NCBI RefSeq assembly: GCF_030166655.1
Contig: NZ_CP126446.1
Span: 1,116,001-1,180,000, forward strand
From: Pontibacillus chungwhensis
Lineage (GTDB): Bacteria > Bacillota > Bacilli > Bacillales > BH030062
Length of the DNA: 64,000 nucleotides
Direction of reading: 5' to 3'
Each line of letters begins with the position of its first letter. The first letter of the stretch is position 1. A model generated the notes under the pieces. The model did no database searches, had not been told where the DNA came from, and saw only the letters and a list, made by a program, of their open reading frames with translations. A program made the position numbers and the translations under genes. Positions 11,711 through 54,724 of this stretch are shown here, piece by piece.

Positions 11711-12994
11711 ATGCTTGGGATTTTCTTAGGGCTTGTCGTATTAATGGTGCTTGCCTACATAGGATGGTCAATCCTATGGGTGGCACCCATTGCGGCAGGT
11801 GTTGTAGCAATAACGGGAGGACTTGATGTCCTTGATGCTTATAAAGATACATATATGGGCGGGTTCGTCGCGTTCGCGAAGGACTGGTTCCCGGTCTTTA
11901 TGTTAGGTGCAATTTTCGGTAAATTGATGGAAGACACAGGTATGGCACGTTCTGTAGCGGTTGCGATGACTAAAGTGATCGGATCACAGCGTGCGATTCT
12001 TGGTGTGTTAGCCTCGGCGGCTGTATTAACGTATGGCGGCGTAAGTTTGTTTGTAGTGGTCTTTGCGGTATATCCATTAGCGATTTCCTTATTCCGCGAA
12101 GCGAACATTAGCCGGAAGTTAATACCGGCAACGGTGGCCTTAGGAGCGTTCACCTTTACGATGACCGCACTGCCTGGTTCACCGCAGATTCAAAACCTGA
12201 TTCCGATGGATTACTATGATACAGATGCCATGGCTGCCCCTGTAATGGGTATTATTGCAGCGATTATTATGGCTGGCGGTGGTTACTTCTACTTGCGCAG
12301 ACAGGAGAAGAAGCTGACGGAAAAAGGCGAGGTCTTTACAGAACCAAAAGAGGAAAAGAACGCAGAGGAAGAGGTAGACACGCCTCACTGGATTCTTTCG
12401 TTCCTTCCGTTACTAACGGTTCTAATCACGCTGAATGTATTTGAACTTGATGTCATTGTTGCTTTAATTATTGGTATTTTAGTCATTATGATTATTAACG
12501 TAGCGAAATTTAAACGATTTGTCGGCGCGATTAACGCCGGTGCAAGCGGCTCGGTTATTGCCATTATCAATACAAGTGCCGCGGTTGGTTTTGGTACAGT
12601 TGTTAAAGCCGTTCCTGGTTTCGAACGGTTAACAGAGCTGTTAATGGGCGTCAAAGGTCACCCGCTGATCTCTGAAGCCATTTCAGTAAACATCCTTGCT
12701 GGTGCAACCGGTTCCGCCTCAGGTGGTATGGGAATTGCTCTAGAAGCGCTTGGCGATAAGTATTACGAAATTGCCATGAATACAGGCGTAAGTCCAGAAG
12801 CCTTCCACAGGATCGCATCCCTATCCTCAGGAGGACTAGACGCACTGCCGCACAACGGAGCGGTCTTAACGTTATTCGCCATCACAGGAATGACGCACAA
12901 AGACAGCTACAAAGATATCTTCGTTGTAGCTGTATTAATTCCGGTACTATCTGTCGCAGCCGTCATCGCACTAGCAGCGATCGGCATCCTTTAA
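11711..12994 (+). CDS. GntP-family permease, probable 3-hydroxybutyrate transporter
   Basis: 427 residues with about 12 membrane segments. GntP-family features include GAIFGKLMEDTGMARSVA, the ATGSASGGMGIALEALG segment and LSSGGLDALPHNGAVLTLFA. Members carry gluconate or hydroxy-acids by cation symport; those linked to hydroxybutyrate dehydrogenase and CoA-transferase genes are usually taken as D-beta-hydroxybutyrate permeases. Position as last gene of this operon, before a strong terminator, supports import of the operon's substrate. A charged cytoplasmic loop (about 200-225) splits the two halves. The substrate is inferred from context. Confidence 0.85.
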   Translation: MLGIFLGLVVLMVLAYIGWSILWVAPIAAGVVAITGGLDVLDAYKDTYMGGFVAFAKDWFPVFMLGAIFGKLMEDTGMARSVAVAMTKVIGSQRAILGVLASAAVLTYGGVSLFVVVFAVYPLAISLFREANISRKLIPATVALGAFTFTMTALPGSPQIQNLIPMDYYDTDAMAAPVMGIIAAIIMAGGGYFYLRRQEKKLTEKGEVFTEPKEEKNAEEEVDTPHWILSFLPLLTVLITLNVFELDVIVALIIGILVIMIINVAKFKRFVGAINAGASGSVIAIINTSAAVGFGTVVKAVPGFERLTELLMGVKGHPLISEAISVNILAGATGSASGGMGIALEALGDKYYEIAMNTGVSPEAFHRIASLSSGGLDALPHNGAVLTLFAITGMTHKDSYKDIFVVAVLIPVLSVAAVIALAAIGIL

Positions 12995-13009
12995 AAGAAT
13001 GAAATGATG

Positions 13010-13042
13010 GAAAGGACACTCCTCTTGGGAGTGTCCTTTTTT
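13010..13042 (+). terminator. Intrinsic terminator of the ketone-body operon
   Basis: AAAGGACACTCC-TCTT-GGGAGTGTCCTTTTTT is a 12-bp nearly perfect stem with a T-run, about 16 bp after the permease stop. Confidence 0.92.
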
Positions 13043-13043
13043 A

Positions 13044-13240
13044 GTGCTTTAGTGTGGTGACGGGTGTCAGGCGCGGTTTGGCGCTTTAGCGAGGTGCAGG
13101 GTGTCAGGCACGGTTTGGTGCTTTAGCGTGATGGTGGGTGTCAGACATGGTTTGGTGCTTTAGTGTGGTGGTGGGTGTCAGACACGGTTTAGTGCTTTAG
13201 CGTGATGACGGGTGTCTGACACCCTTTCGTGCTTTAGCGT
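13044..13240 (+). repeat. 37-bp tandem repeat, five units plus a partial
   Basis: The word GTGCTTTAG (first copies GTGCTTTAG/GCGCTTTAG) recurs at 13044, 13081, 13118, 13155, 13192 and 13229, exactly every 37 bp. Each unit also carries GGGTGTCAGRCACGGTTT-like sequence; the fifth unit changes to GGGTGTCTGACACCC, a perfect palindrome. There is no reading frame of interest. Confidence 0.9.
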
Positions 13241-13253
13241 GCTGGGGCGGGGT

Positions 13254-13440
13254 GGCTCAAGTTGAGGGGGAGTGGCTCAAGAGCGTACTGACAGGCTCAA
13301 GATCAGCGGATTTTGGCTCGAGCGTTCGAAATAGGAGCTCAAGTTAGGGATCACTGGCTCAAGTCGAGGTTTCTCGGCTCAAGTTAAACTAGAGGGGCTC
13401 AAGAATACGGGAATCCGGCTCAAGCCCCAAGCCGCAAGCA
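13254..13440 (+). repeat. GGCTCAAG phased array 1 (nine cores, 20-21 bp period)
   Basis: The octamer GGCTCAAG (twice GGCTCGAG/AGCTCAAG) begins at 13254, 13274, 13294, 13315, 13336, 13356, 13376, 13396 and 13417. The 12-13 bp between cores differ. All cores are on the same strand. The array ends in CCCCAAGCCGCAAGCAGCTGCTTTTG, a weak hairpin. It occupies the gap before the Pel-hydrolase leader. Confidence 0.93.
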
Positions 13441-13541
13441 GCTGCTTTTGTTTTTTCCTATGCGAATGTGGAATTTACAGGGGATTAGATGTTTGTCCGA
13501 GGAAGTTGTCCAACTTCAGACATACGATGAAGGGTAAGATA

Positions 13542-13655
13542 AAAGGAAATGGGGCAAACTCGTGGAAAAGCGGGGCTTCAAGAAGATGTGGATCGTGCAC
13601 AAGTACAACCTATGCAAACGATCAATCAGTTTTACGTGGATGCTTCATTCCTTTG
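13542..13655 (+). ncRNA. Structured leader upstream of the Pel hydrolase gene; GEMM-I-like (tentative)
   Basis: By eye the region folds as a three-way junction. The closing stem pairs AAAGGAAATG (13542) with CATTCCTTT (13646), followed immediately by the ribosome binding site. Hairpin 1 is CTCGT/GCGGG around a GGAAAA loop (13559-13574), and hairpin 2 is GATCGTGCA/TGC..ACGATC (13591-13623). The 5' junction GGGGCAAAC, a GAAA-type loop and GGGG resemble the c-di-GMP-I (GEMM) riboswitch. The usual GACGCAAAGCC block is poorly matched (GGCTTCAAGAAG), so it may be a divergent or dead version, or chance. Context (a Pel gene) fits c-di-GMP control. Confidence 0.35.
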
Positions 13656-13667
13656 TGGAGGGATTTT

Positions 13668-14522
13668 ATGTTAAGAAAATGGATGTTGTCCCTTGTGATT
13701 TTGATGGGTGCCTTCTTTGTTCCAGCATCAGCCCCTGCTTCTTCGCACCTCTTTGACGATATCACCTCCTACCAGATCTACTACGACCCAGTTACAACGA
13801 AAATAGAAAAAGACATGAAGCGGTACGACCTTGTCATTTTAGAACCCCGAGAAGTGACGAAAGAGCGGGTTGCTCGCATCCGTAGAAATGGAACGCTTGT
13901 TTTAGGCTATGTCAACCTAATGGAAGCCGACGAATGGAATGTTGAGGTGATGAAACAGCTCAAGCCACAAGACTTCTTTTACGAGAATGGTCAAAAGGTA
14001 TTCTTCCCTGAATGGGATTCGTATTTGATGGACCTGACCTCTTCTCATTACCAATCCGTTTTGAAAAAGGACTTGAAAAAACAGGTCATCGATAAAGGAT
14101 TCGATGGGATCTTTCTTGATACAGTTGGAGACATCGATAACGAGCACGCGCATCGCAAGTCTGTTTTAAACGCACAACGAGATGCGTACCTTGAATTTCT
14201 GCAGTTTCTCCGAGATGAATACGGTCAAATCCCGATTATTCAGAACTGGGGTTTTGACACATTGAAAGCTGTGTCCGCGCCTCTTGTGGACGGGGTCATG
14301 TGGGAAGGATTCGACTACAATGCGGTGGCGCGAGATTCGTGGAGTCAAGAAAGAATAGCCGAACTGACGAAGCTTCGAAAGAAATATGGTGTTGATGTGT
14401 TTACGGTTTCATACGAATCGAAGAATCGTAGCACCAACTATGCTAAAAGACGTGGCTTTATCCACACCCACGAACCAGACGGTTATAATAAGTGGACCTA
14501 TGTGAAAAAGCTTTCCCCTTAA
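13668..14522 (+). CDS. Secreted GH114-type glycoside hydrolase (Pel hydrolase)
   Basis: 284 residues. The product starts MLRKWMLSLVILMGAFFVPA, a clear signal peptide ending near ASAPASS, after the ribosome binding site GTGGAGGGA. The body is a TIM-barrel domain of the GH114 / endo-alpha-1,4-polygalactosaminidase type: YDLVILEP, LVLGYVNLMEADEW, GFDGIFLDTVGDID (candidate catalytic Asp), IIQNWGFD and VDGVMWEGFDY. In P. aeruginosa this domain is fused to the PelA deacetylase; here it is a separate gene ahead of a cluster whose pelA lacks it. Expected to cut partially deacetylated Pel polymer outside the cell. The frame is open further upstream, but that stretch is the structured leader, so the ATG at 13668 is preferred. 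Confidence 0.85.
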   Translation: MLRKWMLSLVILMGAFFVPASAPASSHLFDDITSYQIYYDPVTTKIEKDMKRYDLVILEPREVTKERVARIRRNGTLVLGYVNLMEADEWNVEVMKQLKPQDFFYENGQKVFFPEWDSYLMDLTSSHYQSVLKKDLKKQVIDKGFDGIFLDTVGDIDNEHAHRKSVLNAQRDAYLEFLQFLRDEYGQIPIIQNWGFDTLKAVSAPLVDGVMWEGFDYNAVARDSWSQERIAELTKLRKKYGVDVFTVSYESKNRSTNYAKRRGFIHTHEPDGYNKWTYVKKLSP

Positions 14523-22687: not shown

Positions 22688-23460
22688 GGCTTGAGTGAGG
22701 CGTTGGCGGCTCAAGTGCTAGGCGGGTGGCTCAAGTGAGGCGCTGGCGGCTCAAGTTCAGGGAGCGCGGCTCAAGTCGTGCGCGGACGGCTCAAGCTAGG
22801 CCGATACGGCTCAAGATTTGCTGGAATTGGCTCAAGAGGTGAAAATAACAGCTCAAGTCAGGAGCGGACGGCTTAAGTCAGCTGATACTGGCTTAAAAGA
22901 GGGAAAACTGGCTTAAGTTCAAGGAAAAGTGACTCAAGCCCCAGCAGTTAATTGACTGTTGGGGCTTTTTTGTATTGAGCTGGGGGGCGAGTGGCTCAAG
23001 TTCGGTGCGTGCGGCTCAAGTTGAGTGAGACCGGCTCAAGCCAGGCCGATACGGCTCAAGATTTGCGGGAATTGGCTCAAGGGGTGAAAATAACAGCTCA
23101 AGTCAGGCGCGGACGGCTTAAGTTAGCTGATACTGGCTTAAGTTCGAGGAAACTGGCTTGAGTTCAAGGAAAAGTGACTCAAGCCCCAGCAGTCAATTGG
23201 CTGCTGGGGGCTTTTTTGTATTGAGCTGGTGGGGGCGAGTGGCTCAAGTTCGGTGCGTGCGGCTCAAGTGGTGCGCTGACGGCTCAAGTTCAGGGAGCGC
23301 GGCTCAAGCTAGGCCGATACGGCTCAAGATTTAAGAGTATTGGCTCAAGAGGTGAAAATAACAGCTCAAGTCAGGAGCTGATGGCTTAAGTCAGCTGATA
23401 CTGGCTTAAAAGAGGGAAAACCGGCTTAAGTTCAAAGAAACCGGCTCAAGCCCCCAGCAG
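22688..23460 (+). repeat. GGCTCAAG phased array 2, triplicated
   Basis: Cores GGCTCAAG (with variants GGCTTAAG, GACTCAAG) start at 22688, 22708, 22728, 22748, 22768, 22788, 22808, 22829, 22850, 22870, 22890, 22910 and 22931, so steps are 20-21 bp. The whole block, including a terminator-like CCCCAGCAG hairpin, is then repeated twice more (about 22985-23217 and 23235-23484) with some units lost. It fills the 0.88-kb gap between pelG and the convergent PAP2 gene; no gene is present. Confidence 0.93.
22936..22971 (+). terminator. Hairpin terminator of the pel operon, repeated inside the array
   Basis: AAGCCCCAGCAGT/ACTGTTGGGGCTT with six following T residues. Near-identical hairpins recur at 23181-23217 and 23447-23484 as part of the larger duplicated block. 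The first would end pel transcription about 0.27 kb past the pelG stop. Confidence 0.8.
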
Positions 23461-32865: not shown

Positions 32866-32897
32866 CGAAGGTCCTTAGGGGACCTTCGTTTTTTTTT
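32866..32897 (+). terminator. Intrinsic terminator after the DJ-1 gene
   Basis: CGAAGGTCC-TTAGG-GGACCTTCG with nine following T residues. Confidence 0.92.
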
Positions 32898-32908: not shown

Positions 32909-33612
32909 GGCTTGAGTTCAGAGTTGGGGGCTTAAGTTGAGGAGGAATGGCTCAAGTGAAGGTGAAGGGGCTCAAGTCGTGGAAGGAGCGGCTCGAGTCC
33001 AGAGGGGGGCTCAAGTCGTGGAAAGAGCGGCTCGAGTCCAGAGGGGGGCTCAAGTTGAGGAGGAGAGGCTCAAGTAGGGAGAGAAGTGGCTCGTGATTTT
33101 ATGAAATTGGCTCAAGGGATGAAAAAATCGACTCAAGTTGAGGGAGAGAAGCTCAAGAGCAATAAAACAGGCTCAAGTGAAGGTGAAGGGGCTCAAGTCT
33201 TGGAGGGAGCGGCTCGAGTCCAGAGGGGAGATCAAGTTGAGGAAGAGAGGCTCAAGTAGGGAGAGAAGTGGCTCGTGATTTTGAAAAATTGGCTCAAGGG
33301 GTGAAAAAATCGACTCAAGTTGAGGGAGAGAAGCTCAAGAGCAATGAAACAGGCTCAAGTGAAGGTGAAGGGGCTCAAGTCGTGGAGGGAGCGGCTCGAG
33401 TCCAGAGGGGGCTCAAGTTGAGGAGGAGAGGCTCAAGTAGGGAGAGAAGTGGCTCGTGATTTTGAAAAATTGGCTCAAGGGATGAAAAAATCGACTCAAG
33501 TTGAGGGAGAGAAGCTCAAGAGCAATGAAACAGGCTCAAGTGAAGGTGAAGGGGCTCAAGTCGTGGAAGGAGCGGCTCGAGTCCAGGGGGCTCAAGCTCA
33601 ACGAAAACGGCT
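32909..33612 (+). repeat. GGCTCAAG phased array 3 with about 181-bp higher-order repeats
   Basis: About 35 cores (GGCTCAAG, with variants GGCTCGAG, GGCTCGTG, GACTCAAG) at roughly 18-21 bp steps on the plus strand. A larger block starting GGCTCAAGTGAAGGTGAAGG recurs at 32950, 33170, 33352 and 33533; the last two steps are 182 and 181 bp and the blocks are nearly identical, so this array expanded recently by block duplication. The open frames across it are a by-product of the repetition. No gene in 32844-33803. Confidence 0.92.
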
Positions 33613-42380: not shown

Positions 42381-42860
42381 AGTGTCTGAATGCGCTTAAA
42401 AGCATCGGAACGCTCGCATGAGATGTCCGGACGTCGTCCCGGAAAAGCATCAGGAGGTCGGCGCAAAGCGTCAGGACACGTCCGAAAAGCGTCGGAACGC
42501 CAGTGCGAAGTGTCGGGACGCCCCTGAAAAGCGTCAGAACGCCGGCGCAAAGCGTCCGGAAGCGCCCCAAAAGTGTCGGGACGCCCCTGAAAAGCGTCAG
42601 AACGCCGGCCCGAAGTGTCGGGGCGCGCCCGAAAAGCGTCGGAACGCCGGCGCAAAGCGTCCGGAAGCGCCCCAAAAGTGTCGGGACGCGCTCGAAAAGC
42701 GTCAGAACGCCGGCGCAAAGCGTCCGGAAGCGCCCCAAAAGTGTCGGGACACGCCCGAAAAGCGTCAGAACGCCCCCGAAAAGCGTCGGAACGCCCCCAC
42801 AAAGCGTCAGGAAGCGCCCCAAAAGTGTCCAGACGCCCCCGAAAAGCATCAGAACGCCCC
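42381..42860 (-). repeat. 21-bp-period array with GCGTC(A/G)GAACGC-type core
   Basis: About 23 units reading (plus strand) AAAGCGTCRGAACGCCCCCG or AAAGTGTCGGGACGC, nearly always 21 bp apart (for example 42467, 42488, 42509, 42530). Much more GC-rich than the neighbourhood. Because 21 is a multiple of three, long frames open in several registers on both strands; none has a plausible start or composition, so they are not called. The array touches the last codon of the nuclease gene at 42861. Confidence 0.9.
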
Positions 42861-53951: not shown

Positions 53952-54724
53952 TTCAGCTTCATATCATGGACACCAGTCTTTTCACTCAGATAATGGATAT
54001 CTACTCTAGTACGGCTTACTTTCTCGTCAATGACGTCTAGCATTGCTTTAATGTCATTTTGCTGAGCGTTCTCAATTCTGTCGAATCGTGTGTCCATGTA
54101 AGAGATTAGATTATCAAAGCGTAAATCCACGCCAGCAAAGCGTTTCTCCATAGTATTGTTCATGGTCTCAAAGGTTGAATCCACGCCAGCAAAGCGTTTC
54201 TCCATAGTATCGTTCAGGGTCTCAAAGCGTGAATCCACGCCAGCAAAACGTTTCTCCATGGTATCGTTCATGGTCTCAAAGCGTGAATCCACGCCAGCAA
54301 AGCGTTCCTCCATGGTATCGTTCATGGTCTCAAAGCGTGAATCCACGCCAGCAAAGCGTTTCTCCATGGTATCGTTCATGGCCTCAAAGCGTGAATCCAC
54401 GCCAGCAAAGCGTTTCTCCATAGTATTGTTTAGGGTCTCAAAGCGTGAATCCATCTCTTCAAAACGCTTATCCATCTGGCCAAGGCGCGTGTCTATGCCC
54501 TCAAAACGCTTATCCATTTGGTCAAGGCGCGTGTCTATGCCCTCAAAACGCTTATCCATTTGGTCAAGACGCGTGTCTATGCCCTCAAAACGCTTATCCA
54601 TCTGGTCAAGGCGTGTGTCTACGCGTTCAAAGCGACGGTCTACATTTTGGAATCCATCATCCACTTTACTTGAAAGGGATTCAATTTGCTCGGAAAGTTT
54701 AAGCAGTAGTTTCTCTTGATCCAT
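53924..54724 (-). CDS. Repeat-rich coiled-coil protein
   Basis: 266 residues; ATG 54724 after AAAGAGGAGGTGAAACG (an upstream frame extension lacks a site). Almost wholly coiled coil. About four 14-residue units (MDKRFEGIDTRLDQ) are followed by about seven 18-residue units (NDTMEKRFAGVDSRFETM), mirrored by 42-bp and 54-bp DNA repeats, so unit number may vary by slippage. A less regular tail (DIKAMLDVIDEKVSRTRVDI) follows. No enzymatic or membrane motif. Possibly a structural or tethering protein. Confidence 0.7.
   Translation of the reverse strand: MDQEKLLLKLSEQIESLSSKVDDGFQNVDRRFERVDTRLDQMDKRFEGIDTRLDQMDKRFEGIDTRLDQMDKRFEGIDTRLGQMDKRFEEMDSRFETLNNTMEKRFAGVDSRFEAMNDTMEKRFAGVDSRFETMNDTMEERFAGVDSRFETMNDTMEKRFAGVDSRFETLNDTMEKRFAGVDSTFETMNNTMEKRFAGVDLRFDNLISYMDTRFDRIENAQQNDIKAMLDVIDEKVSRTRVDIHYLSEKTGVHDMKLNNLAKRLDD

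Follow-up and report, generated by a model that had tools for sequence, protein, structure and literature searches.

Enterobacterial REP/BIME elements form dispersed intergenic arrays near gene ends, and plasmid iterons are direct repeats of about 20 bp that are helix-phased for a binding protein. The arrays considered here lie in a 64,000-nucleotide stretch of the chromosome of the salt-loving bacterium Pontibacillus chungwhensis (NZ_CP126446.1, positions 1,116,001 to 1,180,000; hereafter the window) and elsewhere on the same chromosome, and they consist of an 8-bp core, mostly GGCTCAAG, repeated at steps of 20 or 21 bp. Closest to them in kind are the STAR elements of staphylococci, whose 14-bp core T(G/A/T)TGTTG(G/T)GGCCC(C/A) recurs with at least 40 bp between cores, as given in PMC3532100. 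REPs are palindromic stem-loops and BIME-2 holds gyrase sites (PMC6379681). Among the matches listed for open-licence papers, no title describes the arrays reported here. Judged by their sequence, they appear to represent a new variety of dispersed intergenic repeat array, for which we claim no membership in a named family.

As in the STAR system, a short conserved core occurs here as intergenic direct repeats with locus-specific spacers, copy number changes by local duplication, the spread between species is unequal and the function is unexplained (PMC3532100). The two differ in that the window contains 0 matches to the STAR consensus at up to two mismatches, and in that the 40 bp or more between STAR cores contrast with 20/21-bp steps and 12-13 bp spacers here. 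Moreover, the word "terminator" is absent from the main text of PMC3532100, whereas the present arrays usually lie behind terminators. The TAACTGA repeats of Beggiatoaceae (PMC4679880) are likewise short direct repeats, largely intergenic, present in many sets per genome and patchy over lineages, but they differ in place from the present arrays, which lie behind terminators and have 20/21-bp steps. With REP/BIME, the arrays share a dispersed, extragenic location at gene 3' ends: 31/36 arrays with a called upstream gene are codirectional with it (a count that includes orthologous arrays of three species), and none of the 34 arrays for which both neighbours were called (0/34) is flanked by divergent genes. 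Unlike palindromic stem-loops, they are two-turn direct repeats of an 8-bp core with no conserved fold, the alifold consensus of 18 modules reaching -0.4 kcal/mol with 0 covarying pairs and the fold z-score against shuffles, over 73 chains, averaging 0.04 on the sense strand and -0.41 on the antisense strand. Plasmid iterons resemble them as phased direct repeats of about 20 bp; the present arrays, in contrast, are chromosomal, occupy 13 places, have an 8-bp core and show no rep among nine typed upstream genes. They also differ from structured RNA families, as no Rfam match reaches the gathering score in the window and no covarying fold is found, and from CRISPR, with its identical repeats of more than 20 bp and unique spacers of similar length, in their 8-bp core and 12-13 bp spacers. 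The original prediction had set CRISPR aside on these same grounds.

The array on which that prediction was based comprises nine cores on the plus strand from 13254 to 13424, at steps of 20, 20, 21, 21, 20, 20, 20 and 21 bp and with spacers of 12-13 bp. The number of cores, their single strand and the step series agree with the prediction position by position. Its nine octamers are in fact seven exact copies of GGCTCAAG and two single-base variants, GGCTCGAG as the fourth core and AGCTCAAG as the fifth, and the last core stops at 13424 instead of 13440; CTYRAG is present in 9/9 cores. In the window, GGCTCAAG occurs 49 times against 1.97 expected and a maximum of 6 over 100 shuffles. The suggested genome-wide check of the spacing against a control returned 64 exact core pairs at 20/21 bp, compared with 0 for the reversed pattern. 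These arrays occupy 13 chromosomal places, with two clusters at 369.9-370.8 kb counted once, while the 1.7 Mb from 1.56 to 3.25 Mb, far from dnaA at position 340, contain no exact GGCTCAAG pair.

The two-turn register holds throughout the family. In chains of cores with up to two changes, 793/805 steps are 20 or 21 bp; the chain finder permits only steps of 19-22 bp, and the peaks of an unrestricted distance histogram agree. With one change allowed, across 31 array-bearing stretches from three genomes, 642/666 core distances of up to 21 bp are 20 or 21 and none lies at 22-27 bp. Unit lengths follow a recurrent order across loci when one module per locus is counted in chains of at least nine cores: numbered back from the end, units three and four are mostly 20 bp, whereas units five and six and the last one are mostly 21 bp. 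The order is clearest within the P. chungwhensis genome (G000), where the last unit is 21 bp in 10/11, the sixth from the end 21 bp in 10/11 and the second from the end 20 bp in 9/11; exceptions are the second-from-end unit, which is not mostly 20 bp in G005 and G006, and the loci L171 and L174, which deviate. Modules are repeated in tandem, and the window holds higher-order repeats of 182 and 245 bp. The distances that separate modules are phased at a period of about 10.25 bp (R=0.67, n=28, with orthologues retained). Half-unit gaps occur at six loci (30, 30, 31, 32, 33 and 52 bp) and are not explained by a missed core. The 20-bp steps argue against a coding origin.

The core consensus is GGCTYRAG, which is near-palindromic. 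Its central Y-R step is preserved in 639/661 cores and CTYRAG, which is also the word recognised by the restriction enzyme SmlI, in 544/661, with changes concentrated at the core centre. Within the hexamer, the centre is looser than the outer bases and varies mainly by transitions, and two self-complementary forms that still read CTYRAG, CTCGAG and CTTAAG, account for 88/177 hexamers with a single change. Thus, strict outer bases around a transition-prone centre suit a symmetric, flexible double-stranded site. The spacers show leanings over all units, with T at positions 9-10, G at about 11-15 (in 20-bp units), A at 18 or 19 and C or T at the end, and one unit carries a distinct tail (...AAAATAAC). 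The sense strand of the arrays is purine-rich, and the complementary strand has more C than G. AGCGG, presumably the Chi sequence of B. subtilis, stands at 66/805 unit junctions.

Comparison with sister species separates cores from spacers. Pairs of GGCTCAAG at array spacing occur in 3/61 genomes, all of the same genus: the present one and two sisters (G005 and G006). Flanking genes identify orthologues of the array at 13254-13424 in both sisters, and for 10/14 array regions of this genome an orthologous array exists in one sister or both; the 25 orthologous pairs include 9 assigned by one flank alone, among which the pairing of window position 13254 with L189 is doubtful. At orthologous loci of this genome and the sisters, core identity is 0.89 and spacer identity 0.53-0.55, against a non-orthologous spacer baseline of 0.50. 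Between G005 and G006, which are closer to each other, part of the spacer sequence persists (identity 0.74) and cores reach 0.92; non-orthologous loci have core identities of 0.86-0.88. High core identity at all loci together with near-baseline spacers indicates that cores are held near the consensus while spacers turn over. The spacers had been called unrelated; this is not fully so, given the weak base preferences over all units. Spacer conservation in relatives, named beforehand as the mark of an ordinary tandem repeat, was thus not found when this genome was compared with its sisters. Five further sister species lack GGCTCAAG pairs; inspected by eye at their orthologous pgi and DUF711 gene ends, two of them (G001 and G007) have arrays with other cores at 20-21 bp there, and G002, G003 and G004 have none.

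The usual place of the arrays is behind a terminator. A hairpin with T-run lies within 200 bp before the array in 24/31 codirectional cases, again counting orthologous arrays of the three species, and within 85 bp in 21 of them; on the opposite strand the figure is 4/31. Both neighbours point in the same direction for 23/34 arrays and converge on the remaining 11/34. The upstream genes that were typed encode a GntP permease, a PelG exporter, a DJ-1/PfpI protein, phosphoglucose isomerase, a DUF711 protein, a sporulation lipoprotein, levansucrase, GH65 and MFS proteins. A common regulon was considered and dropped, since these nine genes, from the 14 array regions of this genome, share no function.

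Arrays at similar spacing also occur elsewhere in the order. Among the matches listed by a contig scan, of which 20 Bacillales loci were examined, GCTCAAG cores at 20/21 bp spacing occur in Sporosarcina, Shouchella, Lentibacillus and Paraliobacillus. Periods were compared across the order with this one core and its reversal, GAACTCG, a control core whose use as a test was unplanned. Of 397 genomes in the order, 7 have GCTCAAG triples at 20/21 bp and 10 have GAACTCG triples at that spacing, compared with 0 for both at 23/24 bp and, at 17/18 bp, 2 for GCTCAAG (coding-looking repeats) and 0 for GAACTCG. Near-perfect tandem repeats are present in 3/7 of the GCTCAAG genomes (G154, G156 and G057), two of them inside open reading frames (ORFs) of at least 80 aa, and 5/10 GAACTCG loci overlap ORFs of this size; at least 3/10 GAACTCG arrays (L326, L329 and L331) lie, by eye, behind terminator-like hairpins. 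Five genomes of one genus (g12; L328-L332) carry arrays of TTTTGGCACGAACTCG-like units of 21 bp.

Scans independent of these core words gave a mixed picture. In a 1.45 Mb sample analysed with Tandem Repeats Finder (TRF), 8/13 noncoding tandem arrays with scores of at least 60 have a period of 20-21 bp or a multiple (21, 40, 42, 63); the sample covers 23/25 genomes after two short stretches were dropped, two of the eight matches fall at loci fetched earlier for another reason, and five Pontibacillus genomes were partly sampled around loci already examined. A free lag scan placed 5/10 places outside this genome at 20/21 bp or double, one of the remaining places being a run of N. Counts of 7-mer distances show a clear excess at 20/21 or 40/42 only in G000, G001, G003 and G007, and none in the small samples of G002, G004 and most other families. 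Seven further arrays with other cores do not test the period, because their chain finder allowed only 20/21 bp and doubles. The core strings behind gene ends here, and those with other core words at like spacing in some relatives, suggest an unexplained DNA-structure or protein-docking element.

We propose, at a probability of roughly 45%, that the array at 13254-13424 represents a dispersed double-stranded DNA element which is kept in helical phase, lies where transcription units end and is probably bound by protein. Recognition as double-stranded DNA is suggested by the two-turn register, the near-palindromic Y-R-centred core and core conservation, while array position points to a role at transcription-unit ends. 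Recurrence of the near-palindromic GGCTYRAG every two helical turns would bring the cores onto nearly one face of the helix, where the most likely occupant, side by side on successive cores, would be a dimeric protein that binds or bends DNA, or an enzyme such as gyrase that wraps it. Such occupation would create a nucleoprotein patch at the end of the transcription unit, which may serve as a boundary or influence the topology of the DNA around it. Gyrase is one candidate, and a lineage-specific DNA-binding protein would be another. In E. coli, the G/C content of gyrase sites varies in phase with a 10-bp period, and these sites are enriched on the downstream side of transcribed units (PMC6379681). 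The Pontibacillus family shows an alternation of A/T and G/C content with a period of 10.25 bp (33 loci, share 0.64; null mean 0.26, with 7% of null arrays at 0.55 or above), and 10-bp A/T phasing is found as well in some other arrays, among them two of G003 and those of Shouchella. As to the phased protein binding originally predicted, the two-turn register is real, family-wide and common to the arrays with other cores, and such binding gives the best fit, though binding itself is predicted from these sequence features.

Several observations weigh against this proposal. The Sporosarcina arrays that were tested show no 10-bp A/T phase; wrapping is therefore no common denominator, and A/T phasing as a general rule was dropped. 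Predicted static curvature is not raised over the 33 of 37 array regions that were scored (mean z -0.07, wedge model). Most of the gap phasing is explicable by undetected cores (about 41 and 62 bp), and off-phase gaps of 38, 39, 57, 65 and 80 bp also occur. The shared order of unit lengths can reflect common descent. With respect to position, 5/36 arrays, from three independent places, are oriented against the upstream gene, and no terminator-like site was detected in the 200 bp before the array in 7/31. Moreover, 5/8 Pontibacillus genomes contain no GGCTCAAG pairs, and hence the arrays are not essential to the genus. Finally, the enrichment of gyrase in E. coli lies about 2-5 kb past termination sites and seems not to be hard-wired there by a motif, according to PMC6379681.

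The main competing explanation is a process, mutational or selfish, that duplicates DNA in two-turn steps; we give it a real if minority chance. Here, tandem duplication behind terminators would generate arrays that are born, spread and decay, the core serving, for instance, slippage or gene conversion and having no cellular function. Perfect 20-bp tandem repeats immediately 3' of terminator hairpins, seen in two genomes whose genera differ but belong to the same family (L298 in G154 and L326 in G066, both retrieved by a search at 20/21 bp), look like young, newborn arrays, and the higher-order duplication of modules, the lineage-specific cores, the lack of arrays at orthologous gene ends in some sister species and the period of the noncoding TRF arrays all fit such a process. 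Uniform decay, on the other hand, would not spare 8/20 columns, leaving cores at 0.89-0.92 and spacers at 0.53-0.74; core changes, moreover, are central and leave CTYRAG preserved in most cores. The claim that phased binding fits better than a degenerate tandem repeat was too strong: core and spacer diverge unequally, in contrast to an ordinary degenerate repeat, while growth by tandem duplication is found. Repeat duplication is part of the story, because modules are tandemly duplicated, spacers retain a weak consensus and perfect 20-bp tandems stand behind terminators in two other genomes. The protein-bound element and the duplication process may be stages of one history.

Readings at the level of RNA fare less well. 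An RNA transcript in which a single-stranded binding site recurs, acting as a sponge or as a protein-binding 3' RNA, had been offered as an alternative; it would agree with the prevailing sense orientation to the upstream gene, with the purine-rich sense strand and with the hairpins and T-runs that close the modules of the second locus in the window, where the RNA of module 1, including its terminator hairpin, folds exceptionally with z -4.4. Most arrays are preceded by a terminator-like site, though, the array strand has no promoter-like site at 12900-13700, the 18 modules and 73 chains share no conserved fold, Rfam yields no match in the window, and B-DNA spacing of two turns has no evident reason in RNA, so that we consider this alternative improbable. 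We judge it very improbable that the C-richer complementary strand, transcribed from downstream, provides an unstructured Rho site which halts antisense transcription into the gene. The 11/34 arrays between convergent genes and the excess of C over G on this strand would suit Rho utilisation, but it requires neither exact 20/21-bp steps nor a fixed core, 23/34 arrays lie between same-direction genes, and the arrays of S. highlanderae are, by eye, C-rich on the core strand.

In the window, the array at 13254-13424 lies between genes for a GntP permease and a GH114 hydrolase. An intrinsic terminator at 13011-13042 (+), 3' of the GntP-type permease gene, has a 12-bp stem, a 5-nt loop and a T-run (inverted repeat of 12 nt, 100% complementary); it is absent from the list of a simple scanner, and the detector looking back 200 bp gave none for this array. 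A separate 37-bp tandem array with a GGTGTCAGACAC-type core occupies 13040-13245 (+) between the two, beginning at the T-run of the terminator and ending shortly 5' of the nine cores. The second locus of the GGCTCAAG family (22688-23450) lies 3' of the PelG-type exporter gene and consists of three modules on the plus strand. Module 1 (22688-22938, 13 cores), before which no terminator-like site was detected, is closed by a hairpin and T-run at 22938-22971 (+; sequence and fold), module 2 (22993-23183, 10 cores) is followed by a hairpin and T-run, and module 3 (23241-23450, 11 cores) by a hairpin with a short T-run. The third locus (32909-33602, +) comprises four core chains of 5, 9, 9 and 10 cores, shows the 182-bp higher-order repeat, and is preceded by the intrinsic terminator of the DJ-1/PfpI-type gene at 32866-32897 (+; sequence and detector match). 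A second core family, of GCGTC type and with a 21-bp period, forms an array at 42465-42860 (+); its 14 triple matches fall at three places of the genome, the other two being chromosome positions 1010685-1011046 and 1476238-1476326. Strong 54-bp and 42-bp tandem repeats lie at 54114-54621.

A broader class of Bacillales elements, order-wide, with a fixed two-turn period and lineage-specific cores behind terminators, read by a fast-changing DNA-binding or DNA-wrapping protein that would organise transcription-unit ends, is conceivable, but we hold it to be rather unlikely. The period persists while the core word differs from lineage to lineage. Protein binding, if it occurs, would make the arrays a Gram-positive equivalent of BIMEs, in which a DNA-binding specificity could be observed co-evolving with its sites; if they are mutational in origin, they would point to a duplication process linked to transcription ends and to the helix.
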